Part shown: piece after piece, positions 5,315 through 22,833 of the stretch
Layout: each line of letters starts with the position of its first letter
How positions within the stretch are numbered: the stretch's first letter is position 1
From: an uncultured Desulfobulbaceae bacterium
GTDB lineage: Bacteria; Desulfobacterota; Desulfobulbia; Desulfobulbales; BM004
NCBI GenBank assembly: GCA_947259115.1
Contig: CAMYKS010000007.1
Span: forward strand, 36,696 to 100,695
Direction: 5' to 3'
DNA length: 64,000 bases
Notes under the pieces: generated by a model
What the model saw: only the letters and a program-made list of their open reading frames with translations
Told to the model about the DNA's origin: nothing
Databases searched by the model: none
Made by a program: the position numbers and the translations under genes

Positions 5315-5436
5315 GTTTAACCGAGGATAAATACAGATAAAAACGGACAAAGAACCTATCCACTGATCGACCTGATCAGTGGATAACTTGCACTTCCCTT
5401 CCAGGTTGTTACACCTGAAAGGGAAGAGAGTTTAGT
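5315..5436 (+). repeat. Dispersed four-hairpin element, copy 1 (shortened)
   Basis: Begins with TTTAACCGAGGATAAATAC and the ACGGACAAAG block of the left terminal repeat, then hairpin 1 (TCCACTGATC / GATCAGTGGA), then a second hairpin (CTTCCCTT / AAGGGAAG). The two middle hairpins and the right terminal repeat are missing. It lies between pilins 2 and 3. Confidence 0.7.
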
Positions 5437-5441
5437 TATTC

Positions 5442-6122
5442 TTATTGGCGAACCTTGGTGAAGAAAACACCTTCACGGGCACCTGGCAGGCTGCCGCCGG
5501 CATCCATACCTGCATGGTAATCTGCAGTTTCAGGTGCAAATGGTCCGACACCTGTGTCAAGACTGTCAGTACCCTGAAAAATAAAGGCATAGTAATCAAA
5601 CGATCCACCAGTACTGTCATCACCAGCAACAGTACATGCCAGGGCTCCAGGAATTACACTTGTTGCTGTTTCAGGATCGTTGGGACCTGACAAAAAGATG
5701 GAACCGCCGTTAAAAGGATTACGCGGAATCTTGGCAGGCTCAATAATTTCCTCGACGGAATTTTCGGGATCTGAGTCTGCAACATTATTCATATTGCGAC
5801 CTGTCACAGCGACAAGACCGGTTTGAGCATTCCAATTGTTAGCATCAATAGTTGCAACCCACTGAGCAGTATCAGCCCCATTAACGAGCGTATCAAGATA
5901 GTCGGCCCTTGTTGCTACAGAGTCTTCATCCTGGGCCAGGATCTGCTGCTCGATCCAGTCATTGGCAAATGCTGCCAGCTCGGCACCGTTCTGGCGCACC
6001 AGGTTGTACTTGGCATCGGTGGTGGCGCGCAGGCCCCTCGGCAGGATTACGGCCAGCATGAAGCCGATAATCATAACAACCAGAAGCAGCTCGATCAGGG
6101 TAAAACCTTTTTCATTCCTCAT
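5442..6122 (-). CDS. Type IV prepilin paralogue 3
   Basis: First of the three tandem pilins in transcription order. Start ATG at 6122 with a strong ribosome binding site (GGAGG) 7 nt upstream; an upstream in-frame ATG at 6155 is less likely. Leader MRNEKG, then FTLIELLLVVMIIGFMLAV with Glu5. The early cysteine of the other two is Gly here (RQNGAEL). The C-terminal blocks NPFNGGSIFL, FIFQGTDS, YHAGMDAGG and EGVFFTKVRQ are conserved. Acidic and probably surface-exposed in the variable middle. Upstream lies a 740-bp gap with the hairpin element, so this may be the promoter-proximal pilin. Confidence 0.88.
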   Translation of the reverse strand: MRNEKGFTLIELLLVVMIIGFMLAVILPRGLRATTDAKYNLVRQNGAELAAFANDWIEQQILAQDEDSVATRADYLDTLVNGADTAQWVATIDANNWNAQTGLVAVTGRNMNNVADSDPENSVEEIIEPAKIPRNPFNGGSIFLSGPNDPETATSVIPGALACTVAGDDSTGGSFDYYAFIFQGTDSLDTGVGPFAPETADYHAGMDAGGSLPGAREGVFFTKVRQ

Positions 6123-6529
6123 TTCTTTTCCTCCAGAATTTGAGTTTTGTGTCAATCTTCATCAGTTTCGCAAGATGACAATTTTGCATAAATGATTCCT
6201 AACAGGCCCGTTGTTTTTGGTAATTCTTGTTTCTTTTTAATGAGTTTTGTCGGTTGACTTTGTTTGTGCATACGTGGAAATAAATATATAGGCCGAATTT
6301 CAGGCTCCAGCCCTTTCATGCAAGAAGCATTCCTGAGAAGGATTCAGCTGTTAAAAAATTTCAGGGTGAGGCGTTAATACTTGCATTTCTGCTATTATTT
6401 TTTAAAAAAGTTGATTTTTTCAAGAAAGGGAAAAGGAATATCTGGGGGGAAATGTCTGAATTTTGTCGTGCCAGGAAGGAATGTTGACGTTTTTTGTCAC
6501 TATTTTAGTAACCAAAAATTTTATTATTA

Positions 6530-6773
6530 TTAACCGCAGACAACTACGGACAAAAGATGGACAAAAACAGTTCGTTGTGAGACCTGCACAACGAACTAGT
6601 GTCTGCCTCAGGCGGTTATGTTTGTGGCTTGGATAGTGGCACAGGTATAGAAAACTAACTTTGTGCATGTTGATCAACTCTGCATATTACTATCGCGACA
6701 GCGATGAACTCTATATCATCTGCTAGGTCAGCAGATCATATGTCTGTAGTTGTCCGCCTTTGTCTGCGGTCAA
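6530..6773 (+). repeat. Dispersed four-hairpin element, copy 2
   Basis: Full-length. Left end TTAACCGCAGACAACTACGG, hairpin 1 GTTCGTTGTG / CACAACGAAC, GC mini-hairpin region GCCTCAGGCGG, hairpin 3 ATCGC-GACA-GCGAT, hairpin 4 CTGCT / AGCAG, right end CGCCTTTGTCTGCGGTCAA. With the half copy next to it, this fills most of the 743-bp gap before the toxin gene. The remainder (6123-6529) is AT-rich and shows nothing else recognisable. Confidence 0.85.
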
Positions 6774-6793
6774 TTTTGTTTTTTTGTTTTTTT

Positions 6794-6840
6794 AGTAACC
6801 GCAGACAACTACGGATAAAAGATGGACACGGACAGACAAA
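6794..6840 (+). repeat. Dispersed four-hairpin element, left-end fragment
   Basis: Only the left terminal repeat is present (AGTAACCGCAGACAACTACG, then GATAAAAGATGGACA). It sits directly next to the right end of copy 2, as if two copies had been joined or one broken by deletion. Confidence 0.65.
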
Positions 6841-6866
6841 ATTACCAGGACACTAAAACACCTTAA

Positions 6867-7178
6867 CTATTTCTCATTTCTTGCCTCAAGCAGGTATTTG
6901 CGCAACTGTCTCTCACCACGCATCACATGGAGTATATAAACTTTGTCTTTCTCTATACGATAGAAAATCCGACAGGGCCCGATAATTATTTCCCGATATG
7001 GCATGTGCTGCAATTCCGGGGGCTGACGACCGGATTCAGGAAATGACGCAAGGAGATCAACACGTTCAAAGACTTTTTTAACCAGCCTCTGAGCTGCACT
7101 GACATCATCGAGTGCAATATAATCGGCAATTGCGTCAAGATCCAGCAGGGCGGGCTCAGTCCAGATCAATCGAGCCAT
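6867..7178 (-). CDS. RelE/ParE-family toxin
   Basis: A 103-residue toxin of a type II toxin-antitoxin pair, either an mRNA-cleaving ribosome-associated RNase (RelE type) or a gyrase inhibitor (ParE type). The order ALLDLDAIADYI, RLVKKVFERVDLLASFPESG, RIFYRIEKDKVYILHVMRGE is the family's helix-helix-beta pattern. The sequence alone does not separate the two activities. Its start overlaps the antitoxin stop by 13 nt, so the antitoxin is translated first. The pair is bracketed by copies of the dispersed hairpin element. Confidence 0.85.
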   Translation of the reverse strand: MARLIWTEPALLDLDAIADYIALDDVSAAQRLVKKVFERVDLLASFPESGRQPPELQHMPYREIIIGPCRIFYRIEKDKVYILHVMRGERQLRKYLLEARNEK

Positions 7179-7423
7179 TTTTTCATCTTGCTTTTAGCCT
7201 GTTTTTGCGTATAGGTGCGCTTCTCCAGAAGAGCCCTTTCGCCCCTGGCAATGCCTTCCAGTATACACATGCGCTTCTGCATCTGTTCAAAAGATTCTGC
7301 ATCAACGAGATACGCTGAAGGTTTACCATGCTCTGTAATCAGGATCGGCTCCTTGGACTCATGCAATTCTGCCAGTATCTTTGTTGCCTGTCTCTTCAAT
7401 GTGGTCACAATTTCTACTTTCAT
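7166..7423 (-). CDS. Phd/YefM-family antitoxin
   Basis: An 85-residue antitoxin. The N-terminus KVEIVTTLKRQATKILAELH with ILITEHGKPSAYLVDAESFE is the Phd/YefM DNA-binding fold; the C-terminal part is basic and helical and should wrap the toxin. It neutralises the downstream toxin and probably represses the operon through the perfect palindrome immediately upstream of its ATG. Encoded between two copies of the hairpin element. Confidence 0.87.
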   Translation of the reverse strand: MKVEIVTTLKRQATKILAELHESKEPILITEHGKPSAYLVDAESFEQMQKRMCILEGIARGERALLEKRTYTQKQAKSKMKKWLD

Positions 7424-7438
7424 AATAGTGACACTATT
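7424..7438. promoter_or_regulatory. Operator-like palindrome of the Phd/RelE pair
   Basis: AATAGTG-A-CACTATT, a perfect 7-bp inverted repeat directly adjoining the antitoxin start codon. The position is that of an autoregulatory operator for a Phd-type repressor. Confidence 0.6.
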
Positions 7439-7604
7439 GTATCACTTTCTTTTTTGCAAGCCTTTACTCTATCGGGAAAAGTCTTCATTTTTTTTAGGCT
7501 GAAGGCAAAACGGTTTCTCTGTGTGCTGGTGATCATCGACCATACCACATGGCGATAAAAATATTGCCACCAGTTTGTTGCCAGTATTTTGGGAGGATTT
7601 TTTT

Positions 7605-7660
7605 ATTAACCGCAGACCAAGACAGATCCTTTATTATGCCTGAGGGGCATAAAAGATGGA
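7605..7660 (+). repeat. Dispersed four-hairpin element, left-end fragment with short insert
   Basis: TTATTAACCGCAGACCAAGA is followed by TATGCCTGAGGGGCATAAAA (a small palindrome) and GATGGACA, and it then runs into the next full copy. The flank upstream (ttttgggaggattttttta) closely matches the flank upstream of the copy at 9240. Confidence 0.6.
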
Positions 7661-7670
7661 CATTTTTTTA

Positions 7671-7906
7671 TTAACCGCAGATTTACGCAGATGGACGCGG
7701 ATAAAAGACAGTTCGTTGTGCCACCTACACAACGAACCAGTGTCAGCCTCCGGCGGTTAGGTTTATGGCGGGATTAATTTTTCCGATTAACGGGCCAGGA
7801 CGATGGTTGCTAATGACCCCAGCTATATCGCGCAGCGATGGCACTATATCCTCTGCTAGGTCAGCAGATGATATGTCTGTATTTGTCCGCCTTTGTCTGC
7901 GGTTAT
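7671..7906 (+). repeat. Dispersed four-hairpin element, copy 4
   Basis: Left end TTAACCGCAGATTTACGCAG, hairpin 1 GTTCGTTGTG / CACAACGAAC, mini-hairpin CCTCCGGCGG, hairpin 3 ATCGC-GCA-GCGAT, hairpin 4 TCTGCT / AGCAGA, right end CGCCTTTGTCTGCGGTTA. The right end lies 4 nt from the stop codon of the BrnA-type antitoxin gene. Confidence 0.85.
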
Positions 7907-7910
7907 ACTA

Positions 7911-8180
7911 TCAATGCACCCCGAGTTCTTTTTCGATGCGTTCCGCCAGGAAAATTTTCAAAAGAGATTGATACGGTACATCTTTTTTATTAGCCAGAAG
8001 CTTCAACTCTTCCAGCATTGATTCAGGGAGGCGAAGTGAGATCTTCTTCACGGAAGGCTTGAGATTTGACAATGTTGCACGTTCTGCCTTTTTCCAATCA
8101 ATATATTCCGTTGCATCATGGGTTGCCCAGAATTCTCGTTCTTCATCTTCATTCTTGAATTCAGGTATTTTTTTGCGCAT
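7911..8180 (-). CDS. BrnA-like CopG-family antitoxin
   Basis: An 89-residue ribbon-helix-helix protein. The stretch FWATHDATEYIDWKKAERA is a hallmark of the antitoxins paired with BrnT. VKKISLRLPESMLEELKLLA is the ribbon-helix-helix DNA-binding segment. The start overlaps the end of the toxin gene by 20 nt, so in this pair the toxin gene comes first. Expected to bind BrnT and repress its own promoter. The stop lies 4 nt from a hairpin element. Confidence 0.87.
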   Translation of the reverse strand: MRKKIPEFKNEDEEREFWATHDATEYIDWKKAERATLSNLKPSVKKISLRLPESMLEELKLLANKKDVPYQSLLKIFLAERIEKELGVH

Positions 8181-8469
8181 CGTTATATACCCTCCTTTCT
8201 TTCCGGCTCATATCCCTTGCCGAAATGACGCGAATTAATTTTTTTCGCACAGTAAATGCAATAAATAAGGTTCTTTTCAGGTCTGTCCGGCCAAGGGCAT
8301 AATATCTTTCTTCGTTTTCTGAATGTTCAAGGTCACCCTGAACCACCAGTGGTTGATTAAAGAAAATTTGCTCACACTCGGATGGTGTTACTTTGTGTTT
8401 GAGCCAGTTTTTGGTGGTATTGGCATCATTCCAATCAAAACCTGTACACTCATACAAAAGTTTTTTCAT
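8161..8469 (-). CDS. BrnT-family toxin
   Basis: RelE-fold ribonuclease toxin of the BrnT family (about 102 residues). Family blocks visible: YECTGFDWNDANTTKNWLKH, EQIFFNQPLVV, SENEERYYALGRT, LFIAFTVRKKLIRVISARDM. The C-terminal RKERRVY fits the family. I prefer the ATG at 8469, which has GGATGAG upstream; another ATG lies four codons earlier at 8481. The promoter region contains a 7-bp-arm palindrome suited to autoregulation by the RHH antitoxin. Flanked on both sides by hairpin elements. Confidence 0.87.
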   Translation of the reverse strand: MKKLLYECTGFDWNDANTTKNWLKHKVTPSECEQIFFNQPLVVQGDLEHSENEERYYALGRTDLKRTLFIAFTVRKKLIRVISARDMSRKERRVYNDAQKNT

Positions 8470-8488
8470 TAACTCATCCATTTAATTA

Positions 8489-8509
8489 TGTATATACTCA
8501 TGATATACA
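8489..8509. promoter_or_regulatory. Operator-like palindrome of the BrnT/BrnA pair
   Basis: TGTATAT-ACTCATG-ATATACA, perfect 7-bp arms with a 7-nt spacer, immediately upstream of the toxin gene. A plausible site for the ribbon-helix-helix antitoxin. Confidence 0.55.
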
Positions 8510-8532
8510 CAATGTCAAGTTTCATTTATTTA

Positions 8533-8765
8533 TTAACCGCGGACAAAGGCGGACAAAAGATAGACAAAAGATCTAATCCACTTATCGACTGATAAGTGGC
8601 TTGAAGCCAGCCTCCGGCGGTTTGGCTCATAATTCATTGAATGGATCGAGTCGCAAATTAGCTCAGAGTCGTTTGATGAATTCAGCCCACTAATATCGCG
8701 TCAGCGATGACACTTTGATCTCTGTTAAGTCAGCAGAGATTATGTCTGCTTTTGTCTGCGGTTAA
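8533..8765 (+). repeat. Dispersed four-hairpin element, copy 5
   Basis: Left end TTAACCGCGGACAAAGGCGG, hairpin 1 CCACTTATC / GATAAGTGG, mini-hairpin CCTCCGGCGG, hairpin 3 ATCGC-GTCA-GCGAT, hairpin 4 ATCTCTG / CAGAGAT, right end TTTTGTCTGCGGTTAA. Ends one base before the stop codon of the four-helix-bundle gene. Confidence 0.87.
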
Positions 8766-8766
8766 T

Positions 8767-9120
8767 TTATTTTTTGCTGTCCGTTTTTTTTACTATGGCG
8801 GTTAAGAGGTTAATCAGCTCCTCGGATTTTTTGAGTGTTCCAGCAAAATCAATTTTTTCATTAATCTTGCTGTCTTTAAGAAGGCGCAGCCAATATCGAG
8901 CCTCCCGTGCCTCTTTGGAAGCTATGGCCATTTTGCTATAAAAATCTTTGCCGTTTTGCGCGGCTGTCGCCTCTTCAACATTGGCGCCTATGCTGGTGCC
9001 GGCCCGCACCAGTTGCTTTGAAAGGACATATTCGTTCTGGACCTGCAATGTTTTGTACAGGCGGGTTATTTCTACGGCAAACTGGTAGGACTTATCCTTG
9101 ATTACGTTTGGCTTTTCCAT
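8767..9120 (-). CDS. Four-helix-bundle protein (23S rRNA intervening-sequence/Avd-like)
   Basis: A 117-residue all-helical protein. The line YQFAVEITRLYKTL, SKQLVRAGTSIGANVEEA and KMAIASKEAREARYWLRLLK is the S23/four-helix-bundle family, whose members occur in rRNA intervening sequences or free in chromosomes and include the Avd protein of retroelements. No reverse transcriptase or template repeat is nearby, so it is not part of a diversity-generating element here. Good ribosome binding site (GGAGAAG). The gene stands alone between two hairpin elements, like a cassette. Molecular role unknown. Confidence 0.8.
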   Translation of the reverse strand: MEKPNVIKDKSYQFAVEITRLYKTLQVQNEYVLSKQLVRAGTSIGANVEEATAAQNGKDFYSKMAIASKEAREARYWLRLLKDSKINEKIDFAGTLKKSEELINLLTAIVKKTDSKK

Positions 9121-9239
9121 TTTCTTCTCCCTGGTTTTATGTCTGTCTGAAATCGGTCATTTTGTTTCTTTGAAGCTACCACAGGTTGGGGAGAATCATG
9201 ATGCCAATTAAATGCCAGGGTTTTGGGAGGGATTTTTTA

Positions 9240-9484
9240 TTAACCGCAGACAGGGACAGACAAAAGATGGACGTAAAAAAAATTTATCCACTTATCGACT
9301 TGATAAGTGTATATGTATCAGTTCCGGCGGTTTGGGTCTTGATTAAAGGGATTTATTTGCCGACTATCTCTGAGACTGTTGATGAACTCAGCATAGTAAA
9401 TATCGCGTCAGCGATGACACTATGACCGCTGCCGCGTCGGCAGCGGTCATGTCCGTTTTTGTCCGCTTTTGTCTGCGGTTAATA
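9240..9484 (+). repeat. Dispersed four-hairpin element, copy 6
   Basis: Left end TTAACCGCAGACAGGGACAG, hairpin 1 CACTTATC / GATAAGTG, mini-hairpin TTCCGGCGG, hairpin 3 ATCGC-GTCA-GCGAT, a strong GC-rich hairpin 4 GACCGCTGCC / GGCAGCGGTC, right end TTTTGTCTGCGGTTAA. Lies in the 371-bp gap between the four-helix-bundle gene and mshM; 9121-9239 shows nothing else. Confidence 0.87.
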
Positions 9485-9491
9485 AATTCTT

Positions 9492-11477
9492 TTAATCTTC
9501 CGGCAGGAAAAACTTCGCCACGATCTTCCAGGGGCGTTCGGGATATTCCCCTTCGCGGCGCAGGTAGAGGACCTTGACGCCCTTGTCAGAGTATGTGTTG
9601 GAACTGTACTCCTGGTGGAAAACCCCCATGGCAAGGTCCGGGTTCTGGGGATCAGTCAGGATGACAGGGACCGAGGTGTTAAGGGAGATATACGAACTGG
9701 TGCCCAGGATGCGTGCACGGATCTCACTGAGTTCGGCCAGGGAATAGGTTTCGGGCTCGATGCTGTCCAAGGAGTAGGAAGTAAAGGATTGGGCGTAGAA
9801 GCCCATGAGAGAGGATATGTCACGGTCGCGCCAGGCCTGGGCCCAGTCGTTTATGGTCTCCCGGATGGCGGTAATATCCTCTGTGGGCATATCCTTTTCT
9901 GTTTTACTGCCTGAATAGACGATAACCGGGACAAGGGTATTTTCGGTGTCGGCAACATATTCACCAACCTGGTCCCAGAGTGCGGCTGCGTTAAGCATGT
10001 TGTAGCCGCCCCACTGGAAAAGGATGGGGTTGAAGATAAATGCTCCATTATCCCTGTCGTTACCTAGGAGGTATAGACCTTCCAGGATGCGCCAATCAAG
10101 CGGGAATTCATGTTGCGCAGTCGAACCTGATGCACCTCCCTTCCAGAGCTGGGCCAGATTATTATCACGGTCGACGGCAAGGTAGAATTCGTTTGCCGGC
10201 AGAAGTGATGGGTATGGCTGCTCTGCAGCCAAATGCTCAGGGCGCAGGCCTGAGAGTGCAGGGCTTTCAGAGACTGGAGGCTGGAGAACGGAGGCAGCAG
10301 TTGAGGCACTGGTTGGTTCAGGCAGAACCCGGGCGTTTACCTGGATGTTTGATTTAGGAATAGGCCCAGGATCAGGAGGCTGGAGACCCGAGTCCGGAGG
10401 CTGAAGGTGAGAGGATGAGGCTTCAGGATTCGTGGATACGGGGGCAGCGGCATGAGGTGCGGAGGAAGCAGAAGCCTGTTGCTCTAATTTGGGGACAGAT
10501 TTCAAATCTGTCCCCGCTGAAGGTTTAGCCTGGGAGATTTCTTCTCTTGGTGCAACTTCCGGCTTGTAACCCACGGCAAACAACAGGGCAGTTAAAATGA
10601 CTGCCGCGCCTACAAGTGCAGGCCAGAGCCAGGCAGGAACTGTGCTGATCTTGTCCTCATGGCCCTCGATGCTTTTAATGGCCCGGACCAGGTGTTTTTT
10701 GGACACTGATTTCTCACCGTCCACATAGGCTGCCATCAGGGCTCTTTCGCAGATAAGGTTGATGCGGCGGGGAATGCCGCTGCTCAAACTATGAATGCGG
10801 CCCATGACCCTGGGCATGAAGCGGACGCTCATACCGTCGCCTGCCACTTCAAGACGGTGCCGCACATAGGCGCCGGTCTCTTCAGGAGACAGGGGTGTCA
10901 AACGGTGGCGGATGGTTATACGCTGGGCCAGCTGCTTCATCTCATCGTACAGCAGCCTTTCCTCAAGCTCCAGCTGGCCCACCAGGATGATCTGCAGAAG
11001 CTTTTCCTTGTCCGACTCCAGGTTGGAGAGCATGCGCAGCTCTTCAAGGGTGTCCTTAGGCAGGTTCTGGGCCTCGTCTATGATGATGATGGTCTTGACG
11101 CCATGGGATGATTTGTCCAGCAGGTAATCCCTGAAGCGCCGCAGGAGCATTTCTTTTGAGATGTCCCGGCTCTCCTCCATGCCGGTGATTTCGAGATCAT
11201 CAAGAATGACCGAAAGAAGTTCCCGGGGCGAGATGGTGGGGCTGAGTACCAGGGCCAGGTTGACCTTGTCACCCAACTCCCGCAGGAGCTTTCTGACCAG
11301 CAGGGTCTTGCCCACGCCCGGTGTGCCGGTAATCATGACAAAACCTTCACCGGAGCGTATGGAATACACCATGGTGTCCAGGGCTTCCTTGTGCACCCCG
11401 CTGGGAAAGAAGTAGTCCGGGTCGGGGGTGAGCCGGAACGGCGCGTCTTTTAAATGGAAGAACTCTTCGTAGGACAT
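9492..11477 (-). CDS. mshM: MshM/ExeA-type AAA ATPase with C-terminal extension
   Basis: Inner-membrane ATPase accessory to the MSHA pilus (ExeA/GspA-like). Residues 1-280: AAA+ ATPase with Walker A GTPGVGKT near 51, Walker B IIIIDEAQN near 135 and GIPRRINLICERAL (sensor 2). A single membrane segment follows (WLWPALVGAAVILTALLFAV). Residues ~310-430 are a Pro/Ser/Ala-rich linker, and the C-terminal ~200 residues form a separate periplasmic domain ending in an NTF2-like unit (WAQAWRDRDISSLMGFYAQS). The linker contains GTDLKSVP, encoded by a copy of a 25-bp palindrome that also occurs in intergenic DNA of this window. 661 residues is longer than typical ExeA because of the extra C-terminal domain. 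Confidence 0.85.
   Translation of the reverse strand: MSYEEFFHLKDAPFRLTPDPDYFFPSGVHKEALDTMVYSIRSGEGFVMITGTPGVGKTLLVRKLLRELGDKVNLALVLSPTISPRELLSVILDDLEITGMEESRDISKEMLLRRFRDYLLDKSSHGVKTIIIIDEAQNLPKDTLEELRMLSNLESDKEKLLQIILVGQLELEERLLYDEMKQLAQRITIRHRLTPLSPEETGAYVRHRLEVAGDGMSVRFMPRVMGRIHSLSSGIPRRINLICERALMAAYVDGEKSVSKKHLVRAIKSIEGHEDKISTVPAWLWPALVGAAVILTALLFAVGYKPEVAPREEISQAKPSAGTDLKSVPKLEQQASASSAPHAAAPVSTNPEASSSHLQPPDSGLQPPDPGPIPKSNIQVNARVLPEPTSASTAASVLQPPVSESPALSGLRPEHLAAEQPYPSLLPANEFYLAVDRDNNLAQLWKGGASGSTAQHEFPLDWRILEGLYLLGNDRDNGAFIFNPILFQWGGYNMLNAAALWDQVGEYVADTENTLVPVIVYSGSKTEKDMPTEDITAIRETINDWAQAWRDRDISSLMGFYAQSFTSYSLDSIEPETYSLAELSEIRARILGTSSYISLNTSVPVILTDPQNPDLAMGVFHQEYSSNTYSDKGVKVLYLRREGEYPERPWKIVAKFFLPED
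10491..10515. repeat. 25-bp palindromic repeat inside the mshM coding sequence
   Basis: Perfect arms GGGGACAGATTT and AAATCTGTCCCC around one central C. The same palindrome is intergenic at 58997-59021 and, slightly altered, at 52828-52852 and 41007-41032. Here it stays in frame in a low-complexity linker and encodes GTDLKSVP. Confidence 0.85.
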
Positions 11478-11498
11478 GATTTTTAAAACCTTATTTTA

Positions 11499-11726
11499 TT
11501 AACCGCAGATTTGCGCAGACAAAAGACAGTTCGTTGTGCGATTGCACAACGAACTGTCTTTTGTCTGCGGCAGCTTATGCCGTTAACTTTTAAATAGGTT
11601 GCAGCTCTCTTTTTATCTCTTTCTTCCATCTTAATCGAAACTAATTTTTATCGCGCAGCGATGATACCACATCTTTTGCCAGTCGGCAAAAGATGTATCC
11701 GCGAAAATCTGCGTATATCTGCGGTT
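11499..11726 (+). repeat. Dispersed four-hairpin element, copy 7 (rearranged)
   Basis: Left end TTAACCGCAGATTTGCGCAG. Hairpin 1 is extended into a perfect 26-bp stem (11514-11539 with 11544-11569, loop GATT) because the terminal repeat sequence is copied on both sides of it. Hairpin 3 ATCGC-GCA-GCGAT, hairpin 4 CATCTTTTGCC / GGCAAAAGATG, right end ATATCTGCGGTTTCAA. The mini-hairpin is replaced by GGCAGCTTATGCC. Confidence 0.85.
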
Positions 11727-11761
11727 TCAAAAAATCTTTTAACCTTTTCCTACCCTGCGCT

Positions 11762-12580: not shown

Positions 12581-12588
12581 TTTTTATT

Positions 12589-12765
12589 TAGCCACGGACA
12601 CACACGGACACACACAGACATTCAGCCTGCCGACGCGGCAGGCTGTATAGTGCCATCGCTACGCGCTAAAACATTAAGCCCCGCAGGGTGACAACTAGTT
12701 CGTTGTGCACGTTGCACAACGAACTGTCTTTTGTCCGTGTCCGTCTGTGTGTGTCTGTGGCTAAT
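12589..12765 (-). repeat. Dispersed four-hairpin element, copy 8 (inverted)
   Basis: Read on the minus strand: TTAGCCACAGACACACACAG, hairpin 1 GTTCGTTGTGC / GCACAACGAAC, mini-hairpin CCCTGCGGGG, hairpin 3 AGCGC-GTA-GCGAT, hairpin 4 CAGCCTGCC / GGCAGGCTG, right end GTGTGTCCGTGGCTA. It abuts the stop codon of the ABC permease gene. Terminal repeats have drifted to a CAGACACA pattern on both sides. Confidence 0.85.
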
Positions 12766-14515: not shown

Positions 14516-14542
14516 ATTATCTTTTATCTTTACCCTCTCACT

Positions 14543-15184: not shown

Positions 15185-15215
15185 GCTCTTCTTTTAAAAC
15201 ATAAATAATTTTTTA

Positions 15216-15460: not shown

Positions 15461-15542
15461 TATTATTTTAAAAAGTCCTTTTTCCCTTTTACCTTTTATC
15501 TAAAGCCTTGTGCCTAAAGCCGTATCTTTTATCTCCTAACTA

Positions 15543-16778
15543 TTAAAATCCTGTATTCACCTGACTTGAGAGCTCATTGACCAAATCGTAAATCGGCAGC
15601 AGGATACCCATGATAAGGGCTAAAGCCAGGCCGGCAAGAATAAATATCAGGACCGGCTCCATGATAGCCAGGGCCCAACTGATCCTCCTGGTGAGATCCT
15701 CCTCATACTGGTCAGCCACATATTCCATTTGCTTGCTGACGTTGCCTGACTCCTCGCCCACGGCAACCATGCGGGTCACCATGCGGGGAATTATCTTTCT
15801 CTTGCGAAAGGCATCGGAGAGCATGGAGCCGGCTGTTATCTCACTGTGGCAACCGGACATGATCCTGCGCAGCACCAGGTTGTTCATGGACTTGATGGCA
15901 AGCTCCATGCCCCGCAGGGTATTGATGCCCGCGCCCAGAAGCATGGACATGTAGCGCATGAAAAAGGCCATGCGCAGCTGGATGAAGACCTTTTTGACAC
16001 CGGGCAGGTTCAATTCGCACCAGTCAAACCAGTAGCGCACCGTATCCAGCCTGCGGCTCAGGATAAAAAGAACAATGAGTACGATAATCCCAATAAAGAT
16101 AAAGGGCCACCAGGCCTGCATGAAATAGGAGAGTTTCTGCATGATCACGGTGATCAGGGGCAGTTCGACATCAAACTGCTCCATAAGTGAAAAAAGGAGC
16201 GGGAAGACCATGCTGAGGTAGACATAGGCTGCCAGGATCAGGGCAAGGATAACAAAGGAGGGGTAGATAAAGGCCTTGTGCGTCTGCAGGATGAGATCGT
16301 CGATACGCTTGAAATGCCGGGCCAGGTCAAAAAACACATTGTCGAGTAGGCCGGTTTCCTCGCCGATGGCAATGACATTGACATAGATTTCGGGAAATGT
16401 CTTGGGCTCACGGGCCATGGCCTCGTTCAGGCTGTCTCCGGCCGTGATATTGTCGATAAGCGACTTGATGACCTTCTTGAAATAACGGTTTTCCATATCC
16501 TCGTGCAGCTCGGAGAGGCTCTGGATCAGGGGGACGCCGGCCCGCAGCATGACGCCCATGTTGTTGCTGAACTCAATGAGGTCGCGGCGGCTGACAGTGC
16601 CGAGCTTCAGCAGATCCCAGAGGGAATGCAGGGCCTTGAGGCGGGTCTGTTTATATTCAAGCAGATGCAACCCGGCCTGGTGCAGCTGAGCGGCCAGTTC
16701 GGCATCCGAGGAGGCAGAGCGCACTCCCTTGATGATCAAACCGCTTGCATCTGTTGCTTTGTAGGAAAAATCAGGCAT
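15543..16778 (-). CDS. mshG: MSHA/type IV pilus inner-membrane platform protein
   Basis: 411 residues, GspF/PilC family. N-terminal FSYKATDASGLIIKGVRSAS is the usual start. Two GspF domains (about 70-190 and 275-395) carry GVMLRAGVPLIQSLSELHED and LLGAGINTLRGMELAIKSM, with VAVGEESGNVSKQMEYVADQ (the typical E-x-G/S-G turn). Three membrane helices are visible (around 170, 220 and 380). It anchors the MshE ATPase at the inner membrane. The gene lies alone between two hairpin elements, yet its order relative to mshE is as in known msh loci. Confidence 0.92.
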   Translation of the reverse strand: MPDFSYKATDASGLIIKGVRSASSDAELAAQLHQAGLHLLEYKQTRLKALHSLWDLLKLGTVSRRDLIEFSNNMGVMLRAGVPLIQSLSELHEDMENRYFKKVIKSLIDNITAGDSLNEAMAREPKTFPEIYVNVIAIGEETGLLDNVFFDLARHFKRIDDLILQTHKAFIYPSFVILALILAAYVYLSMVFPLLFSLMEQFDVELPLITVIMQKLSYFMQAWWPFIFIGIIVLIVLFILSRRLDTVRYWFDWCELNLPGVKKVFIQLRMAFFMRYMSMLLGAGINTLRGMELAIKSMNNLVLRRIMSGCHSEITAGSMLSDAFRKRKIIPRMVTRMVAVGEESGNVSKQMEYVADQYEEDLTRRISWALAIMEPVLIFILAGLALALIMGILLPIYDLVNELSSQVNTGF

Positions 16779-16812
16779 ATTTCATGAGCTTAAAAGTATA
16801 TATACTTTTTAA

Positions 16813-17052
16813 TTAACCGCAGACAAAGACGGACAAAAGATAGACAAAATACAGTTCGTTGTGCGACGTGCACAACGAACTACTGGTCAGCCTCCGGCGG
16901 TTATGTTTATGGCTTGATTTGCGTTGTTGGTTACCAAACTATCTCAGAGCATTTTAATAAAATAAACAAAAAATCGCGTTAGCGATGACACTGTAATCTC
17001 TGTCAGTCAACAGAGATTACGTCTGTTTTTGTCTGTCTTTGTCTGCGGCAAA
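16813..17052 (+). repeat. Dispersed four-hairpin element, copy 11
   Basis: Left end TTAACCGCAGACAAAGACGG, hairpin 1 GTTCGTTGTGC / GCACAACGAAC, mini-hairpin CCTCCGGCGG, hairpin 3 ATCGC-GTTA-GCGAT, hairpin 4 TAATCTCTG / CAGAGATTA, right end TGTCTTTGTCTGCGGCAAAT. A good reference copy because both terminal repeats are intact. Confidence 0.88.
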
Positions 17053-17089
17053 TTAAAATCTTTTATGTTTTCTTAACTCCTCACTTTTT

Positions 17090-18739
17090 TTACGTCACTT
17101 TAAGAACTTCCTCCAATGTCGTGACACCCCGGGCCACTTTTTTGAGGCCGTCGTCACGCATGGTCTTCATGCCGTCTTTTTTTGCCTCTGCCAGCAGCAG
17201 ATTGGATGGCGACTTCTGGGAGATAAGTTTGCTGAGTCCGTCGCTTATCTCAAGTATCTCATAAATTCCGATACGGCCGTGATAGCCAATATCTTCACAG
17301 TAGCCACAACCCCTCCCCTGCATGAGCTTCTTGTGCTCCAGGCCCCATTCTCCTAAGCCATAAGGTGCGAGGTCCCTGACATTGACTTCATACTCCGTCT
17401 TGCAGTTGCGGCAGATGCGGCGCACCAGGCGCTGGGCAATTACGGCTCGCAGCACCGAAGAAACAAGGTAGGGCTCAACCCCCAAGTCAAGGAGCCTTGG
17501 AACCGTGGAGACCGCATCGTTTGTATGGATGGTTGACAGGACGAGATGGCCTGTCATGCCGGCCTGCATGGCTATACGGGCGGTTTCAAGATCGCGGATC
17601 TCACCCACCAGGATGACGTCCGGATCCTGCCGGAAAAAATGCTTGATGGCCTCTGAAAATGTGAGACCTGTGGTTTCATTAACCTGGGTCTGCTTGATGA
17701 ACGGCAGGGTGTACTCAATGGGGTCTTCGATGGTGAGGATGTTTCTCTCCAGGGTATTGACGGACTGGAGCATGGCGTAAAGGGTGGTGGTTTTGCCGGA
17801 GCCGGTGGGACCGGAGTTCAGGATAATGCCATGGGGTTTTTCCGCCAGCTTTTCAACGCTTAAGCGCTCCTTTTCATCCAGGCCGAGGAAGTTGAGATCA
17901 AGGAGTACGGAGCTTTTGTCAAGCAAACGCAGGACCACGTTTTCACCATACTTGCAGGGAGAGGTGGAAGTCCTGATATCAATAGCCCGGCCGCCAAGGT
18001 CGTGAGCCATGCCGCCTTCCTGGGGCAGACGCTGCTCCGCGATGTTCATGCCGGAGGCGATCTTCAGCCGGTTGACAATGGGCATATGGAGATGCTTGGG
18101 CATGACCATGCCGCTGTGCAGGACCCCGTCTATCCGGTAGCTCACCCGAAAGGCTTTCTCCTCCGGGGTGAAGTGGATATCAGTGGCATGTTCCTGGATT
18201 CCTTTAGAGATGACAAGGTCCACCAACCGCACAATGGGTGTCATGGAATCACCGGTGCTGAATGAGCCCTTGACCGCAGCCTCAATGTTGCGGTCTATCT
18301 CCTCTTCGATGGAACCGCCAACGCCCGCATACATCTCGATCGCCTTCTGGATGGCGCAGAGATCGGCCCCAAATATCTCAACTTTTTTGCCGGTCTCCCT
18401 CCGCAGACTGTCCAGGGCGTGGATGTCGCTGGGGTTTTCCATGGCCACCTGAAGGGTTTCATCCCCAAATGCAAAGGGCACCACCATGAATCTTCTGGCA
18501 GTTTCGTTTGAAACCAGGCGGAAGGCCTCGGGGTTGATCGGCGTTTTGTTCAGGGGAATGAATGAGACTTCGGCCTGAATGGCCAGGGCCCGGGCCAATT
18601 CTTTATGGGTGATCACCCCCATACGCACCAGGACCGCGCCGATGAGTTCACCCGTGCGTTTCTGCTCACCCAGTCCAATCTCCAGTTTCTGGGAAGACAC
18701 CATCTGGTTTTCAACCAGTATTTCACCGATGAGTTTCAA
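17090..18739 (-). CDS. mshE: MSHA pilus extension ATPase (GspE/PilB family)
   Basis: 549 residues. C-terminal GspE ATPase: Walker A SGPTGSGKTTTLYAMLQS, Asp box ILTIEDPIEY, Walker B DPDVILVGEIRDLETA, His box TGHLVLSTIHTNDA, and a tetracysteine zinc site (CRNC...CGYC). The N-terminus has two tandem 24-residue units, LIGEILVEN...LEIGLGEQ and LIGAVLVRM...LARALAIQ, separated by KRTGE. This is the arrangement of the MshEN c-di-GMP-binding motif, though the leading Arg-Leu of each unit is Leu-Ile here. It powers pilus extension from the cytoplasmic face. Bounded by hairpin elements. Confidence 0.93.
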   Translation of the reverse strand: MKLIGEILVENQMVSSQKLEIGLGEQKRTGELIGAVLVRMGVITHKELARALAIQAEVSFIPLNKTPINPEAFRLVSNETARRFMVVPFAFGDETLQVAMENPSDIHALDSLRRETGKKVEIFGADLCAIQKAIEMYAGVGGSIEEEIDRNIEAAVKGSFSTGDSMTPIVRLVDLVISKGIQEHATDIHFTPEEKAFRVSYRIDGVLHSGMVMPKHLHMPIVNRLKIASGMNIAEQRLPQEGGMAHDLGGRAIDIRTSTSPCKYGENVVLRLLDKSSVLLDLNFLGLDEKERLSVEKLAEKPHGIILNSGPTGSGKTTTLYAMLQSVNTLERNILTIEDPIEYTLPFIKQTQVNETTGLTFSEAIKHFFRQDPDVILVGEIRDLETARIAMQAGMTGHLVLSTIHTNDAVSTVPRLLDLGVEPYLVSSVLRAVIAQRLVRRICRNCKTEYEVNVRDLAPYGLGEWGLEHKKLMQGRGCGYCEDIGYHGRIGIYEILEISDGLSKLISQKSPSNLLLAEAKKDGMKTMRDDGLKKVARGVTTLEEVLKVT

Positions 18740-18806
18740 AGCTGCTTAATTTTAAGTTTTAAGTTTTGTGTCCGTCATCAGCAGTAATGAATACGGATTT
18801 TTATTA

Positions 18807-18986
18807 TTAACCGCTGACCACAACAGACAAAGACAGACTTTTAAAAATCCGTTCGTTGTGCGACATGCACAACGAACTACTTGTCACCCTGCGGGGCTTA
18901 TTACTTTATCGCGCAGCGATGAGCATATATTCGCTGCCAGGTTAGCAGCGAATATGTCCGTTTTTGTCTGCGCCTGTCTGCGGTTA
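18807..18986 (+). repeat. Dispersed four-hairpin element, copy 12
   Basis: Left end TTAACCGCTGACCACAACAG, hairpin 1 GTTCGTTGTGC / GCACAACGAAC, mini-hairpin CCCTGCGGGG as in copy 8, hairpin 3 ATCGC-GCA-GCGAT, hairpin 4 CATATTCGCTGCC / GCAGCGAATATG, right end GCCTGTCTGCGGTTAAA. The spacer between hairpins 2 and 3 is nearly absent, so this is a compact form. Confidence 0.87.
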
Positions 18987-19035
18987 AATATTTTTTTATC
19001 ATTTTGTCCTGTGCCCTTATCCTTGCACCCTGTGC

Positions 19036-19509
19036 CTATTCCTTCTCCAGCACAATATGCAGGCTGATGGGGCTTTTGTTGGGTTTGCGGAAAAACCTGC
19101 TGCGCATGAGTCTGTTCAATTCCACGGAACGGCTTCTGTAGCCGTCTGCCTTAAAAAAGGCCCAGAAATTATCCGCAGTGAGCGGTTCAAAAGTGAAGGC
19201 ATAATTGCCGTCTTCATCGGTTGTCGCCACCACCTCTTCATCCGTTACAACATATTGCACTTCTTCTTTAGCAACAGTTTCCGCCCCCTGCTGATTCTCT
19301 GCATTCTTTTCTTCTTCCAGCGCCAAGCGTTTGATAAGAAGCACCGTGCAGCTGCCCACGGGCTTATCCTCCTGGTTCATCACGCGTCCGAAAAAATGAT
19401 ATATTCCCGGTGCAGTCGACATGGCCGAAGATGTTGCTGCCGAAAGGCAAAAAGCAGCAGCAAGCACTATTGCAGCAACGGGTAGCAGTATTTTTGTTTT
19501 ATTATCCAT
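19036..19509 (-). CDS. Exported protein with carboxypeptidase-regulatory-like (beta-sandwich) domain
   Basis: 157 residues. Signal peptide (residues ~6-28, LLPVAAIVLAAAFCLSAA) followed by a single beta-sandwich of the CarboxypepD_reg type: FFGRVMNQEDKPVGSCTVLL, then VATTDEDGNYAFTFEPL and FFKADGYRSRSVEL. Between them is a charged insert (LEEEKNAENQQGAE). I chose the ATG at 19509, which has GAGG upstream; the ATG at 19521 is the alternative. It starts 31 nt after the TPR gene and is probably cotranscribed. Likely a periplasmic structural accessory; no enzymatic residues seen. Confidence 0.72.
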   Translation of the reverse strand: MDNKTKILLPVAAIVLAAAFCLSAATSSAMSTAPGIYHFFGRVMNQEDKPVGSCTVLLIKRLALEEEKNAENQQGAETVAKEEVQYVVTDEEVVATTDEDGNYAFTFEPLTADNFWAFFKADGYRSRSVELNRLMRSRFFRKPNKSPISLHIVLEKE

Positions 19510-19539
19510 TATGAACCTCATTGTTTTTCCAGGCTGGAT

Positions 19540-20766
19540 TTATGGCCGCGCATTTTTCACGGCCCCGTCCAGCAATCTCATTCTGTCCGATATCCTGCTA
19601 TGGAGCCGCCGGTCCTTTTTCACCGGGCCAAGCTCAAGGGTTTCCCCATACAGGGCCAATGCCTCGGGGTAGCGTCCCTGCTCTTCAAGCAGATGTCCAT
19701 AGGCAAGGAGCACTTCCAGGTTATCCGGAGCAATCTGCAACAGCTCCCTGTAATACATCTCAGTGGCTGCATAATCCCTGTTCTTCTCAGCCAGGTAGGC
19801 AAGATTGACTAGGGCATTTTCCTCCAGGGGGTTGGCATCCAGTGCTGCGCCAAACTGTGCTTCCGCCCTTGATTCATTACCCTGAAAGAGGCTGACCACC
19901 CCCATATTGAGCAGGGCTTTACTGTTTGTCGGCTCAATGGCAAGAATTACTGCCAGGATCTCTTCCGCCTCATGGTAGCGCTCCTGCTGGACATAGAGCG
20001 CCGAGAGATTGATCATGGCCTCCATATGACCCGGCGCCTCTTCCAAGGCCCTTTTATAATATATCTCTGCAATACGGCCGTCTCCCTTATGCTGGGCCTG
20101 TAGACCGGCCTGGTAAAACTTCTTGCTCTTCTCCCGGGCTCCAGAACTTACCCCGGAGGAAGGGTAATTTTTTGCGTCCGCTGCAGCGCTTCTTCCGGTT
20201 GGTCTTGACAAAACAGCTGCGACCTTCTCAACTGAATCTTGAGGTTCGGTATAAACCGGCATATTTTCCGGAAAAGTAATCTTCATGATTTCACTTTCCA
20301 GTTCCAGGGGTTGCACCGGTTTCTTCCCCATGATCTCCTGCCGCTCTGATGAAGTCTCTGCAATTGCGGAGCGGGAAGAAGAGGCATTAACCGATTTGGA
20401 TTTTTCCGGTTCCGGAAAAACCTGGATAACCTGCACCATGTCCTGTCGGGTAGCACGCCTTTCCACTTCCTTTATGACATCGGTTTTCTGAGGAACACCG
20501 GCAGTTACTGCAGGCTTATCCGGTAGGGCCTGCAGAGGAGCAGGAGGATCGGCATGGACTGCAATCTTAACATTCTGAGCGGGATAAAATATCTTGTAAA
20601 CTAAAAACAAGAGAAGAACACCGATGAGGCAGGAGCCGAGAATCAGCAGGAAAGATGGCCGCTTGGGCTTACTGCTGTCCCTGCGCATCAGGGCCGGGGG
20701 GATCTCGACATCCACATCCGAGCCGTTCTTTCCTTGTATTTTCAGGTAGTCATAGATCAGGCTCAT
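19540..20766 (-). CDS. TPR protein, MshN-like pilus accessory
   Basis: 408 residues, type II membrane topology: cytoplasmic N-terminus, one membrane helix (FLLILGSCLIGVLLLFLVYK near 40-60), a long Pro/Ser-rich periplasmic linker, then about five TPR units from residue 220 (AQHKGDGRIAEIYYKRALEE, MEAMINLSALYVQQERYHEA, SKALLNMGVVSLFQGNESRA, ...). This layout and its place directly after mshL match MshN, a pilotin or assembly-like factor. It overlaps the mshL stop by 4 nt. Sequence identity to known MshN cannot be judged by eye. Confidence 0.72.
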   Translation of the reverse strand: MSLIYDYLKIQGKNGSDVDVEIPPALMRRDSSKPKRPSFLLILGSCLIGVLLLFLVYKIFYPAQNVKIAVHADPPAPLQALPDKPAVTAGVPQKTDVIKEVERRATRQDMVQVIQVFPEPEKSKSVNASSSRSAIAETSSERQEIMGKKPVQPLELESEIMKITFPENMPVYTEPQDSVEKVAAVLSRPTGRSAAADAKNYPSSGVSSGAREKSKKFYQAGLQAQHKGDGRIAEIYYKRALEEAPGHMEAMINLSALYVQQERYHEAEEILAVILAIEPTNSKALLNMGVVSLFQGNESRAEAQFGAALDANPLEENALVNLAYLAEKNRDYAATEMYYRELLQIAPDNLEVLLAYGHLLEEQGRYPEALALYGETLELGPVKKDRRLHSRISDRMRLLDGAVKNARP

Positions 20767-22352
20767 TGTTCTATAATTGTCGGATTAAGCATTATGACCA
20801 GCTCTCTTTTCTCAGACTCCTTTGTCTGGCCTGAAAAGAAGATTTGACCAAGATAGGGGATATCGCCAAGGACCGGGATGCCGGTGGAATCTTCTATGGT
20901 GCGCTCCAGGATGAGGCCGCCCAGGACAATTGTTGAGCCGTTTCTGGCCCTGACGATGGAATCGGTGGCCCGCATGTCTATTATGGGTATTTCCCAGGTG
21001 TCACCGTCCTGGGTGAACTGTTTGAAGCCGACAAGATCGGTGATGACCGGCACGATGTGAAGGGTTGCCACGCCATTTTCATCTATCTGAGGTGTAACAC
21101 CCAGGGAGATGCCGACCCGGGTGTTCTGCATTGTGGGCACCAGCTGGGTAAAGCGCCCCAGTATATCATCTGGATCCTGGACCGTACTGAGCTGCCAGTC
21201 GATATAGGGAATGTTGCGGGCCACGGTGATGAGGGCCGTCTGGTTGTTAACCGCGCTTATCCTGGGGGAGGCCAGGACATTGACATTACCCTGTTGTGAG
21301 AGTGCCTCAATAAAGCCGCCGATGACGTTAGAGCTGGTTTCCCTTAAAAACTCCATGGTGATGTTGCCGCCGCCCGTGGTAAAATCAGAGATGAACTGCA
21401 GATCGCCACCGGAGTTTAAAAAGTCCCGGGCCAGCACATCCCACTTTATGCCGTACCTGTAATTATCGTTTAAGGTAACTTCCAGGATCTTGGCCTCAAT
21501 GGTGACCTGCCTGCGCAGTACCTTTTGCAGAACATTGAAATACTCTTCTATGAGTATAAGGTTCTCGCGGCGGTCCGTTATCATGATAGTGCCGGCAAGC
21601 TTATTGATCTGCATCCTGCCCTGCTCGCTCAAGAGCCCCTGCTGCCCTTCGCCGCCGCCTCTCAGGGAGCGCTCCAACTGTTTCCACAGGTCAAGGGCGC
21701 CGGAGTCAACACTGGTTTCTATGCTGAACTCGCCGCGCATGTCATTTTCATCATTTGAATTTGAACGCCTGTTGTTATTGTTGTTGCCCCTGGTGCCCAG
21801 CATGTCGCCGCCTACATTTGAGGTGGGGGTATTTACCATGAGCGGATAATCGAAATGGAAAATTTTTGTTTCCATGGCCTTTATGCGCAGGATATTGCCG
21901 TCTATGTCATAAAAATACCCGTAGGCATTCAGTATCATGTCAAGGACAGTGGCAAGGGGCAGGTCGTAAAGCTCAACGGAAACAGGCTCGTTGTATTGCA
22001 CACCTCTTTCAATGACCAGGTTCAGCTCCGCCTGTTTGCTCAAACCGAGCAGAACATCACGCATGGGTGTGGATCGTGCAGATAGTGAAAAAAGTTTGCT
22101 CTCATAGCCCATTTTTTCCGCCGCAGCGACTCTTGGTTTCAGAGACGCAAGGGGGGACAGGGACGAGCGCGGCCTGGATTCAATTCTGCGGGGGGGCTGC
22201 TTCTCAAGCTCGGTTCGCGGTGCTGCCTGGGGCTGGATGGAAGGCTCCGGCGGGGTGCTTGTTGCTGCACAACCGGCCAGAAAAACCAACGCCAGGAAAC
22301 ACACACAAAAAATCCGCTTTATATTGGTCTGGGAATTATGCTTTAGATTCAT
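20763..22352 (-). CDS. mshL: MSHA pilus secretin (outer-membrane channel)
   Basis: 529 residues from the ATG at 22352; upstream residues of the longer frame lack signal character. Lipoprotein signal IFCVCFLALVFLAGC. An STN/secretin short domain (PVSVELYDLPLATVLDMILN) is followed by a low-complexity Asn-rich loop, an N1-like domain (MITDRRENLILIEEYFNVL) and the secretin core: VTIEAKILEVTLNDNYRYG, VLASPRISAVNNQTALITVA, VGISLGVTPQIDENGVATLH, and the final STIVLGGLI...VLGDIPYLGQIFF. It forms the multimeric pore through which the pilus leaves the cell. The stop overlaps the TPR gene start. Confidence 0.93.
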   Translation of the reverse strand: MNLKHNSQTNIKRIFCVCFLALVFLAGCAATSTPPEPSIQPQAAPRTELEKQPPRRIESRPRSSLSPLASLKPRVAAAEKMGYESKLFSLSARSTPMRDVLLGLSKQAELNLVIERGVQYNEPVSVELYDLPLATVLDMILNAYGYFYDIDGNILRIKAMETKIFHFDYPLMVNTPTSNVGGDMLGTRGNNNNNRRSNSNDENDMRGEFSIETSVDSGALDLWKQLERSLRGGGEGQQGLLSEQGRMQINKLAGTIMITDRRENLILIEEYFNVLQKVLRRQVTIEAKILEVTLNDNYRYGIKWDVLARDFLNSGGDLQFISDFTTGGGNITMEFLRETSSNVIGGFIEALSQQGNVNVLASPRISAVNNQTALITVARNIPYIDWQLSTVQDPDDILGRFTQLVPTMQNTRVGISLGVTPQIDENGVATLHIVPVITDLVGFKQFTQDGDTWEIPIIDMRATDSIVRARNGSTIVLGGLILERTIEDSTGIPVLGDIPYLGQIFFSGQTKESEKRELVIMLNPTIIEQ

Positions 22353-22616
22353 TTTTTTTTCTTTCTCCGCCCGAAAACATACTATAATATTAACATGATG
22401 TATATACTTTAACTGGGTCCATGACAGGAAATGTTTAAAAACTGTCGGCCTCATGGATTACAAATTTCATTCAATCGATCCTGCCTTTAAAAGAGTTAAA
22501 TGTTTAACCTGAAGGATATCTTATTTCTGTTGTTGCCATTTCACGCCGCCGAGCAGCAGGAAGGCGTAGGGCGCAAGGCTGAAAATTTCATAAAATGACA
22601 TACTGATTATTTTCAT

Positions 22617-22833
22617 TAACCGCAGATTATTTTTAATGCACCCTTGAATACAGGGTATAAACCACCTTGAGGGGCACAAAAACAGACTGACCTCTGACGA
22701 CCTGTCAGAGGTCAAAGTGCCATCACTGCGTGATAAACATTTCGCCCCGTAGGGGAACAGATATCCACTTATCAAGTCGATAAGTGGATAAACTCTTTTG
22801 TCTGTGTTTGTCTGTGTATGTCTGCGGCTAATC
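22617..22833 (-). repeat. Dispersed four-hairpin element, copy 13 (inverted, with insert)
   Basis: On the minus strand: TTAGCCGCAGACATACACAG, hairpin 1 TCCACTTATC / GATAAGTGGA, mini-hairpin CCCCTACGGGG, hairpin 3 ATCAC-GCA-GTGAT (a base-pair swap relative to ATCGC/GCGAT), hairpin 4 TGACCTCTGAC / GTCAGAGGTCA. Its right arm is interrupted by a 40-bp module (CCTCAAGGTGGTTTATACCC...) that also occurs near 40870 and partly at 7636. The gap 22353-22616 holds no convincing gene. Confidence 0.85.

Follow-up and report, generated by a model that had tools for sequence, protein, structure and literature searches.

Gene-less inverted-repeat elements among the pilus genes of a Desulfobulbaceae bacterium probably belong to a mobile family whose coding members hold a GxxExxY gene

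The window, a stretch of 64,000 nucleotides from contig CAMYKS010000007.1 (C7) of an uncultured Desulfobulbaceae bacterium (genome G000), contains 11 copies of a short inverted-repeat element in the gaps of a pilus locus. We consider it probable that these copies are gene-less members, similar to miniature inverted-repeat transposable elements (MITEs), of a mobile family whose coding members hold GxxExxY. This protein is a predicted PDDEXK nuclease, and its proposed task is to recognise the ends of the element and mobilise it. The observations behind this reading are dispersed copies with a common layout, presence or absence at the same sites at the species level, GxxExxY genes located between the same arms, and an arm flavour that follows the GxxExxY tree. 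A family of GxxExxY mobile elements has apparently not been described so far.

To locate the copies, the window was searched with an nhmmer profile seeded with nine hand-picked copies; the other two, at positions 11500 to 11727 (E 5.7e-23) and 22616 to 22832 (E 3.4e-20), were found by the profile. The 11 copies (E values from 1e-65 to 3e-20) and several fragments all lie within positions 5315 to 22834, with full copies spanning 6.5 to 22.9 kb and fragments starting at 5315. Outside 5.3 to 22.9 kb, the window gave no convincing match (best hit, E 1.1), which agrees with the original prediction, in which none was seen elsewhere in the window, nothing better than E = 1 being found there. The single 17.5-kb block is likewise retained, whereas the count changes from 11 long copies and one short copy to eight long (228 to 245 nt) and three short (176 to 217 nt) copies, the long ones having approximately 60 nt extra between hairpins 2 and 3. 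As predicted, the copies possess inverted ends of the TTAACCGCAGAC type and a constant hairpin order, occur in both orientations (eight plus, three minus), and are without exception intergenic, each between two predicted genes. Their location at gene 3′ ends also held for all 11 copies, the distance to a stop codon being 0 to 92 nt.

Each element is framed by two arms, which enclose, from left to right, hairpin 1 with a GAC loop, two mini-hairpins, namely, hairpin 2 of the GCC-TCC-GGC type and hairpin 3 (ATCGC-loop-GCGAT), and hairpin 4 with a GTC loop; an arm of approximately 33 nt is made up of three repeats of about 11 bp of the CGCAGAC type. Hairpins 1 and 4 mirror each other in their GAC and GTC loops, and their stems are variable. 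Copy d (long, plus strand, 9240 to 9483, nhmmer) illustrates this architecture: the left arm with its three ~11-bp repeats (9240 to 9272) and the right arm (9451 to 9483) are evident from the sequence, hairpin 1 (CACTTATC-GACTT-GATAAGTG, 9289 to 9309) from the DNA fold, hairpin 3 (ATCGC-GTCA-GCGAT, 9402 to 9415) from the fold and covariation, and hairpin 4 (ATGACCGCTGCC-GCGTC-GGCAGCGGTCAT, 9422 to 9450) from the fold, covariation, and pair counts. Single-strand DNA folds of two copies gave z values of −8.7 and −9.1, with none of 200 shuffles equally stable. RNAalifold returned no structure for the left halves, probably owing to a misplaced gap, and hence the right half alone was modelled. In the right-half alignment of 16 copies, hairpin 4 shows changes of both partners at 11 of its 12 pairs, and the structure covariation score was 0.49 compared to 0.17 for shuffled alignments (0/500 as high). 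All five covariation measures exceeded the shuffles, with 0/500 as high for four of them and 10/500 for pair types, and they were also above slid controls. Among 60 end-hairpin regions from several genomes, 54 distinct stems were present, most loops were of the A(R)GTC type, and only one region (L112) gave no real hairpin; 655 of 687 pairs were Watson-Crick, 15 were G-T, and 5 were A-C. In the arms, by contrast, it is the sequence that is conserved, and not pairing within individual copies. Such base-pair statistics are evidence of structure but cannot tell RNA and DNA apart.

A covariance model of the right half of the element (R1) gave 41 matches (E ≤ 0.01) in the window's genome, many of them being the mirror half of the same element. 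By our own count, this corresponds to 24 clear right-half places, plus one weak, on eight contigs: 16 on C7, i.e., 11 in the window block and five at C7:22.4 to 26.3 kb, and eight on contigs C1, C8, C12, C20, C29, C37, and C38. The copies are clustered, with 16 of about 24 on one 100-kb contig and 11 in 17.5 kb (G000:C7:22400 to 59530). Originally described as filling the gaps of a pilus locus, the element is not specific to it: within the block, copies also stand between toxin-antitoxin-like genes and an IVP gene, and the element is present on seven other contigs. Among relatives, R1 matched 6 of 38 genomes at E ≤ 0.001, namely, the window's own, four of its eight congeners, and G018, which belongs to the same order. 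At E ≤ 1e-5 and with stricter filters, R1 matched 15 of the 297 phylum genomes examined, these being from 13 of 199 genera. Several of the 14 matched phylum loci inspected displayed the full layout with unrelated stems, and in G106 six elements lie within 2.6 kb, surrounding a GxxExxY gene and one other gene. The covariance-model search of genome and relatives proposed at the outset thus yielded what had been named as support, many copies genome-wide and a layout that recurs, with other stems, elsewhere in the phylum. In G002, the sequence just beyond the left arm is common to copies L076 and L081 over about 80 nt, a shorter part of it being found in L068. A search of viral contigs with one end pattern gave no exact match.

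Elements that follow genes one by one, with toxin-antitoxin-like genes between some of them, recall integrons, in whose arrays genes are each followed by a recombination site and toxin-antitoxin genes occur among the cassettes. That gene and element together form such a cassette is nevertheless very improbable, given that three of the 11 copies are reversed instead of all sharing one orientation, that several genes between copies are pilus-type genes, that elements are scattered singly on other contigs, and that related elements contain a gene. The mixed orientation disfavoured this candidate, and it was set aside.

The pilus loci of sister species were unusable as empty sites: the PilC-like protein was only 25 to 30% identical in nine of ten relatives (26 to 30% in six named loci), and the tenth had no match. 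Other operons were therefore used for the comparison. A short copy occupies the gmd-fcl gap of the window's genome, whereas the sister species G008, G001, and G003 have short gaps without an element; G005 has other sequence, G004 has no gmd on its contig stretch, and R1 matched the window's own genome only. The gap between pcrA and folC holds a copy in G006, the only match of R1 among the genus genomes read, while G007, G004, the window's genome, G008, and G001 contain other sequence, several with runs of 7- to 8-bp repeats, and the gap of G005 is shorter. The differences at both sites are gains or losses at the species level. The presence of different short-repeat sequences in the pcrA-folC gap of several congeners (L266 to L270) marks it as an insertion hot spot. 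In the gap between ech and acs, relatives carry GxxExxY elements of three arm flavours; G357, G355, and G353 possess other GxxExxY genes (50, 42, and 41% identical) with other arms, most of the GxxExxY gene is deleted in the copy of G348, and G366 and G361 have no such element.

These comparisons also bear on the idea that the copies are regulatory or RNA-processing signals selected by the host in operon gaps, either as structured mRNA or as paired binding sites of IHF/HU-like proteins. Hairpins maintained by compensatory change, copies sitting behind stop codons in one operon strand, and G-T pairs somewhat favoured over A-C would all fit this idea, and similar paired arrays of Geobacter metallireducens are read as global regulator sites in the available text passages of one report (PMC2700814). 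We nonetheless judge it unlikely, since copies occur in both orientations relative to the operon, an operon gap with a copy can, in related species, hold other repeat elements or be free of them, and some members contain a GxxExxY gene. A regulatory RNA as such was not retained as a candidate: there was no Rfam match, and the pair statistics show structure but not RNA as opposed to DNA.

The link to GxxExxY (PF13366) was examined in two samples. In the first, comprising 12 genomes all chosen for holding R1 matches, GxxExxY was present in 10 and IVP (PF05635) in all 12. R1 matched (E ≤ 0.1) in 12 of 30 GxxExxY loci of about 3 kb each, six of them at E < 1e-6, although not all of these matches adjoin the gene; for IVP, the figure was 1 of 30 loci. 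Locus L146 (G193) contains, in order, an arm, hairpin 1, GxxExxY, hairpin 3, hairpin 4, and an arm, and fills the ech-acs gap between two acyl-CoA metabolism genes of an operon. In the same gap, L237 (G347) carries GxxExxY between two end hairpins and arms, with a weak R1 score; the two proteins are 86% identical, whereas the hairpin stems are unrelated. Both, as well as L147, pass the TIGR04256 cut-off of 35 bits (152.2 bits for L146, 151.4 for L237, and 153.6 for L147). In the window's order, a GxxExxY-type gene of G018 lies approximately 10 to 25 nt from complete one-hairpin elements on both sides, with window-type arms (CACAGAC/CACGGAC), and the single GxxExxY match in nine genomes of the window's genus is a contig-end fragment in G008 located just inside a window-type arm and hairpin 1.

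Inverted arms (score ≥ 15) were found at 17 of 29 GxxExxY genes of the first sample; with fixed gene ends, the values were 14/29 for GxxExxY, 3/41 for neighbours, and 11/224 for mismatched flanks, i.e., flanks drawn from different loci. For the second sample, 148 genomes were examined, 48 of which were positive, and the best gene was taken from each of the 30 with the highest scores; inverted arms were found at 20/30 compared to 5/40 neighbouring open reading frames (ORFs) and 15/236 mismatched flank pairs; gene ends were at fixed positions for seven of the 30 genes, and five of the 30 are shared with the first sample. In the simplest members, GxxExxY is the sole gene between the arms; it lies within 10 bp of both in L174, L179, L185, L195, L196, and L203. 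Residues of catalytic type (E, D, K, and Q) are invariant in 25 aligned GxxExxY proteins, and the E of ExK is present in 24. For one GxxExxY protein there was no sequence match in the PDB, and a search of viral contigs with one query returned no GxxExxY relative. No function for GxxExxY was found in print, most subscription literature being outside the search; in the passages available, the name appears as a gene table entry and in a remark on a CRISPR neighbour and is not treated as an element, and PF13366 appears once.

GxxExxY genes without an R1 match often lie between inverted arrays of other repeats, of the GCAGAG, GCAAAG, ACGAAG, ACGGA, and ATCCTGTC types. Elements of the GCAGAG type have an end-hairpin loop of their own, TTGAGAGG, which is present on both gene sides in L145 and, with small changes, on at least one gene side in L151, L152, and L170. 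Regarding novelty, the element as a whole had been called unrecognised; this stands insofar as Rfam has no match to it, but it proves to be one flavour of a larger set of inverted repeat arrays with members that carry GxxExxY. When the flavours, labelled by eye, were placed on a tree of 32 GxxExxY proteins, 11 changes were required, compared to a shuffled mean of 20.4 (0/200 as low). The seven window-type rows, from four host families, form one side of a branch (92/94, not starred). The tree leaves out loci whose arms were unreadable, further instances of a gene already included, and broken genes, as well as some loci with readable arms that were missed by the ORF filter or not added (L151, L159, L170, and L249).

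GxxExxY is the best candidate for the moving enzyme because it is the single ORF between the arms, has nuclease-type residues, and matches the arm flavours in its tree. We propose that the arm repeats would serve as GxxExxY binding sites and that the hairpins, with variable stem and fixed loop, may work in DNA as structural signals at which cutting takes place. By cutting, GxxExxY would move the element, acting in trans on gene-less copies. Elements may gather behind stop codons because insertion there would do little harm, and the copies in the window's genome could be relics of a GxxExxY source that is lost or unassembled.

Several results weigh against this proposal. Its main weak point is that the window's genome, in an assembly that is 91% complete, contains no GxxExxY match; the same applies to eight of nine genomes of the genus, though copies differ between species. 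In the second sample, 10 of 30 GxxExxY genes scored below 15, among them L174 and L202 with weak arms. The GCAGAG and ACGGA flavours are scattered on the GxxExxY tree, and since gene and arms are physically linked, a common tree shows joint inheritance, not recognition. Similarity of the arms within a copy does not clearly exceed that between copies (133/2000 permutations as high), and co-evolution of the arms within copies was therefore dismissed as not significant. In the end hairpins, G-T mismatches outnumber A-C (15 to 5), so that they may have a role as RNA. The ends are TTAA-like; a target-site duplication was not readable, the flanks at gmd-fcl being too diverged, and transposition as such is therefore not shown. 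Finally, IVP genes are arranged alike with other repeats, and the pattern is thus wider than GxxExxY.

Some of these points would suit mobile elements in which GxxExxY is a passenger, e.g., a nuclease of the defence or toxin-like kind, with arms and gene being moved jointly by a recombinase unrelated to it. The window's genome has no GxxExxY match although copies vary among sister species, and IVP genes, which belong to another family, sit between similar inverted arrays. Rpn proteins (recombination-promoting nucleases) are PDDEXK-type nucleases and in this respect resemble GxxExxY. The abstract openings of two reports link them to RecA-independent DNA transfer (PMC5350276) and to toxic anti-phage defence (PMC10327210); they differ in belonging to another family and, in the same abstract openings, are not tied to short inverted elements. 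We regard a passenger role as possible though doubtful, as GxxExxY is the sole gene between the arms in the simplest members and arm flavour follows the GxxExxY tree.

The IVP genes (S23, four-helix) were analysed in parallel. At the window gene (8767 to 9120) and loci L114 to L143, they are flanked by inverted arrays of repeats of approximately 7 to 8 bp, and the inverted-arm score reached at least 15 in 22 of 29 loci, compared to 2/44 neighbours and 9/214 mismatched flanks. It seems likely that a parallel element family exists around IVP genes. In L210 (G334), an IVP four-helix gene at 1079 to 1465 (TIGR02436, 121 bits), flanked on either side by repeats of the GGGTGAGG type, is situated in the gmd-fcl gap, the same operon gap that the element of the window's genome occupies. 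IVP genes were not found inside the present element: the one R1 match in 30 IVP loci lies about 1.3 kb from the gene, and the window IVP gene is located between two complete copies and inside neither. On the basis of this single match, IVP was dropped as a candidate for the linked gene. The GxxExxY-carrying elements resemble the intervening sequences of 23S rRNA with an S23/IVP gene, which, as far as the consulted part of one report describes them, are small one-gene elements with complementary ends (PMC4990558). The position of IVP genes between inverted arrays adds to the likeness, while the intervening sequences differ in carrying IVP instead of GxxExxY and in being inserted in 23S rRNA (PMC4990558).

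The remaining copies and fragments are given in the order of the window, as located by nhmmer unless stated otherwise. Instead of the two end fragments predicted, a left-half fragment (arm plus hairpin 1; 5315 to 5391, plus strand, E 5.5e-10 and sequence) and two left-arm fragments on the plus strand were found, one at 6794 to 6846 (E 7.8e-4) and the other, with E 0.027 only and recognised from the sequence, immediately ahead of copy b at 7604 to 7665. On the plus strand lie the long copies a (6530 to 6774), b (7671 to 7906; 4 nt from the stop codon of the antitoxin-like gene 7911 to 8180), c (8533 to 8766; abutting the stop codon of the IVP gene 8767 to 9120), d (8 nt from the stop codon of 9492 to 11477), j (11500 to 11727; sequence inspection indicates a left half rearranged to arm-hairpin-arm), f (15216 to 15460), and g (16813 to 17051), together with the short copy h (18807 to 18988). 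On the minus strand are the short copy i (12589 to 12764; nhmmer and DNA fold), which abuts the stop codon of 12765 to 13538, the long copy e (14276 to 14515), whose strand was set by hairpin order as nhmmer gave 119 and 111 bits on both strands, and the short copy k (22616 to 22832), the right arm of which has about 40 nt of extra sequence. Distances to the stop codon of the higher-coordinate gene are 92 (a), 4 (b), 0 (c), 8 (d), 27 (e), 82 (f), 38 (g), 47 (h), 0 (i), 34 (j), and 64 nt (k). Some arms contain extra small hairpins or insertions (e.g., GTACCCCTC...GAGGGGGTAT), as at window positions 7604 to 7665 and 22616 to 22690 and in L031 (5473 to 5606, 5615 to 5893, and 8181 to 8297) and L034 (9000 to 9060), and the elements look modular.

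Neighbours of the copies are pilin-like genes, PilB/GspE-like, PilC-like, a relative of the PEP-CTERM-type ATPase, toxin-antitoxin-like genes, and IVP genes, several of these names being tentative, some with scores under curated cut-offs. Between copies a, b, and c (6867 to 8481) lie a RelE/ParE-like toxin (TIGR02385, 21.8 bits, under its cut-off), an antitoxin-like partner, and a second toxin-antitoxin-like pair, which we take to be BrnT/BrnA-like and of which 8161 to 8481 has no NCBIfam match. At gathering score, the element copies had no match in Rfam, whose only matches in the window lie elsewhere, namely, a tRNA and a c-di-GMP riboswitch; the latter is a c-di-GMP-I-GGC aptamer at 61630 to 61705 (67.8 bits).

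Among known systems, REP/BIME elements, associated with RAYT (Y1) transposases, are paired inverted hairpins in intergenic gaps. The window elements share this pairing and location but have long inverted arms and four hairpins, and their relatives contain a gene of another family. Like MITEs, the copies are short (176 to 245 nt), gene-less, bounded by terminal inverted repeats, and dispersed (24 right-half places in the genome). MITEs share their ends with a transposase-carrying element; the copies share theirs with GxxExxY-carrying elements, GxxExxY itself not being a proven transposase. In the part of one report consulted, MITEs (Correia, ERIC, and others) are likewise short, dispersed, intergenic, and gene-less, with inverted ends and a stable fold, and one Coxiella MITE is mainly located in 3′ untranslated regions (PMC10969869). 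The present elements differ in their arms, where ~11-bp repeats form arrays that adjoin hairpins of variable stem and fixed loop, and in their coding relative, which carries a PDDEXK-type gene in place of a known transposase. For G. metallireducens, the text passages describe arrays of 7- to 9-bp repeats, mostly paired, as "predicted global regulator binding sites" of classes 1 to 3 (PMC2700814). They resemble the present arms in their tandem 7- to 9-bp repeats, those of classes 1 and 2 being paired on opposite strands at variable distance (PMC2700814). The repeat that adjoins the IVP genes of L132 and L139 is similar, by eye, to class 3 (MTYCTGA). The arrays differ in being discussed with IHF/HU proteins, and these passages mention neither hairpins nor GxxExxY (PMC2700814). 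In G. bemidjiensis, palindromic and direct-repeat families are described, with multicopy sequences in 12% of intergenic regions, in the part of the paper available (PMC2996986).

There is about an even chance that the pattern is more general, with GxxExxY proteins serving as the nucleases that mobilise a large, so far undescribed superfamily of bacterial elements with inverted repeat arrays and "fixed loop, free stem" hairpins, gene-less progeny accounting for much unexplained repeat-array DNA in environmental genomes, and IVP (S23) genes representing a parallel family. If GxxExxY moves elements such as those of the window, a common gene family without a job so far would gain one, and the tie to the element ends makes binding and cutting of its own arms by GxxExxY directly testable. 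This tie would also explain repeat arrays previously read as regulator sites, and it gives a one-gene element that retains its end hairpins as the stems are replaced, even where two copies occupy the same gap (L146 and L237).

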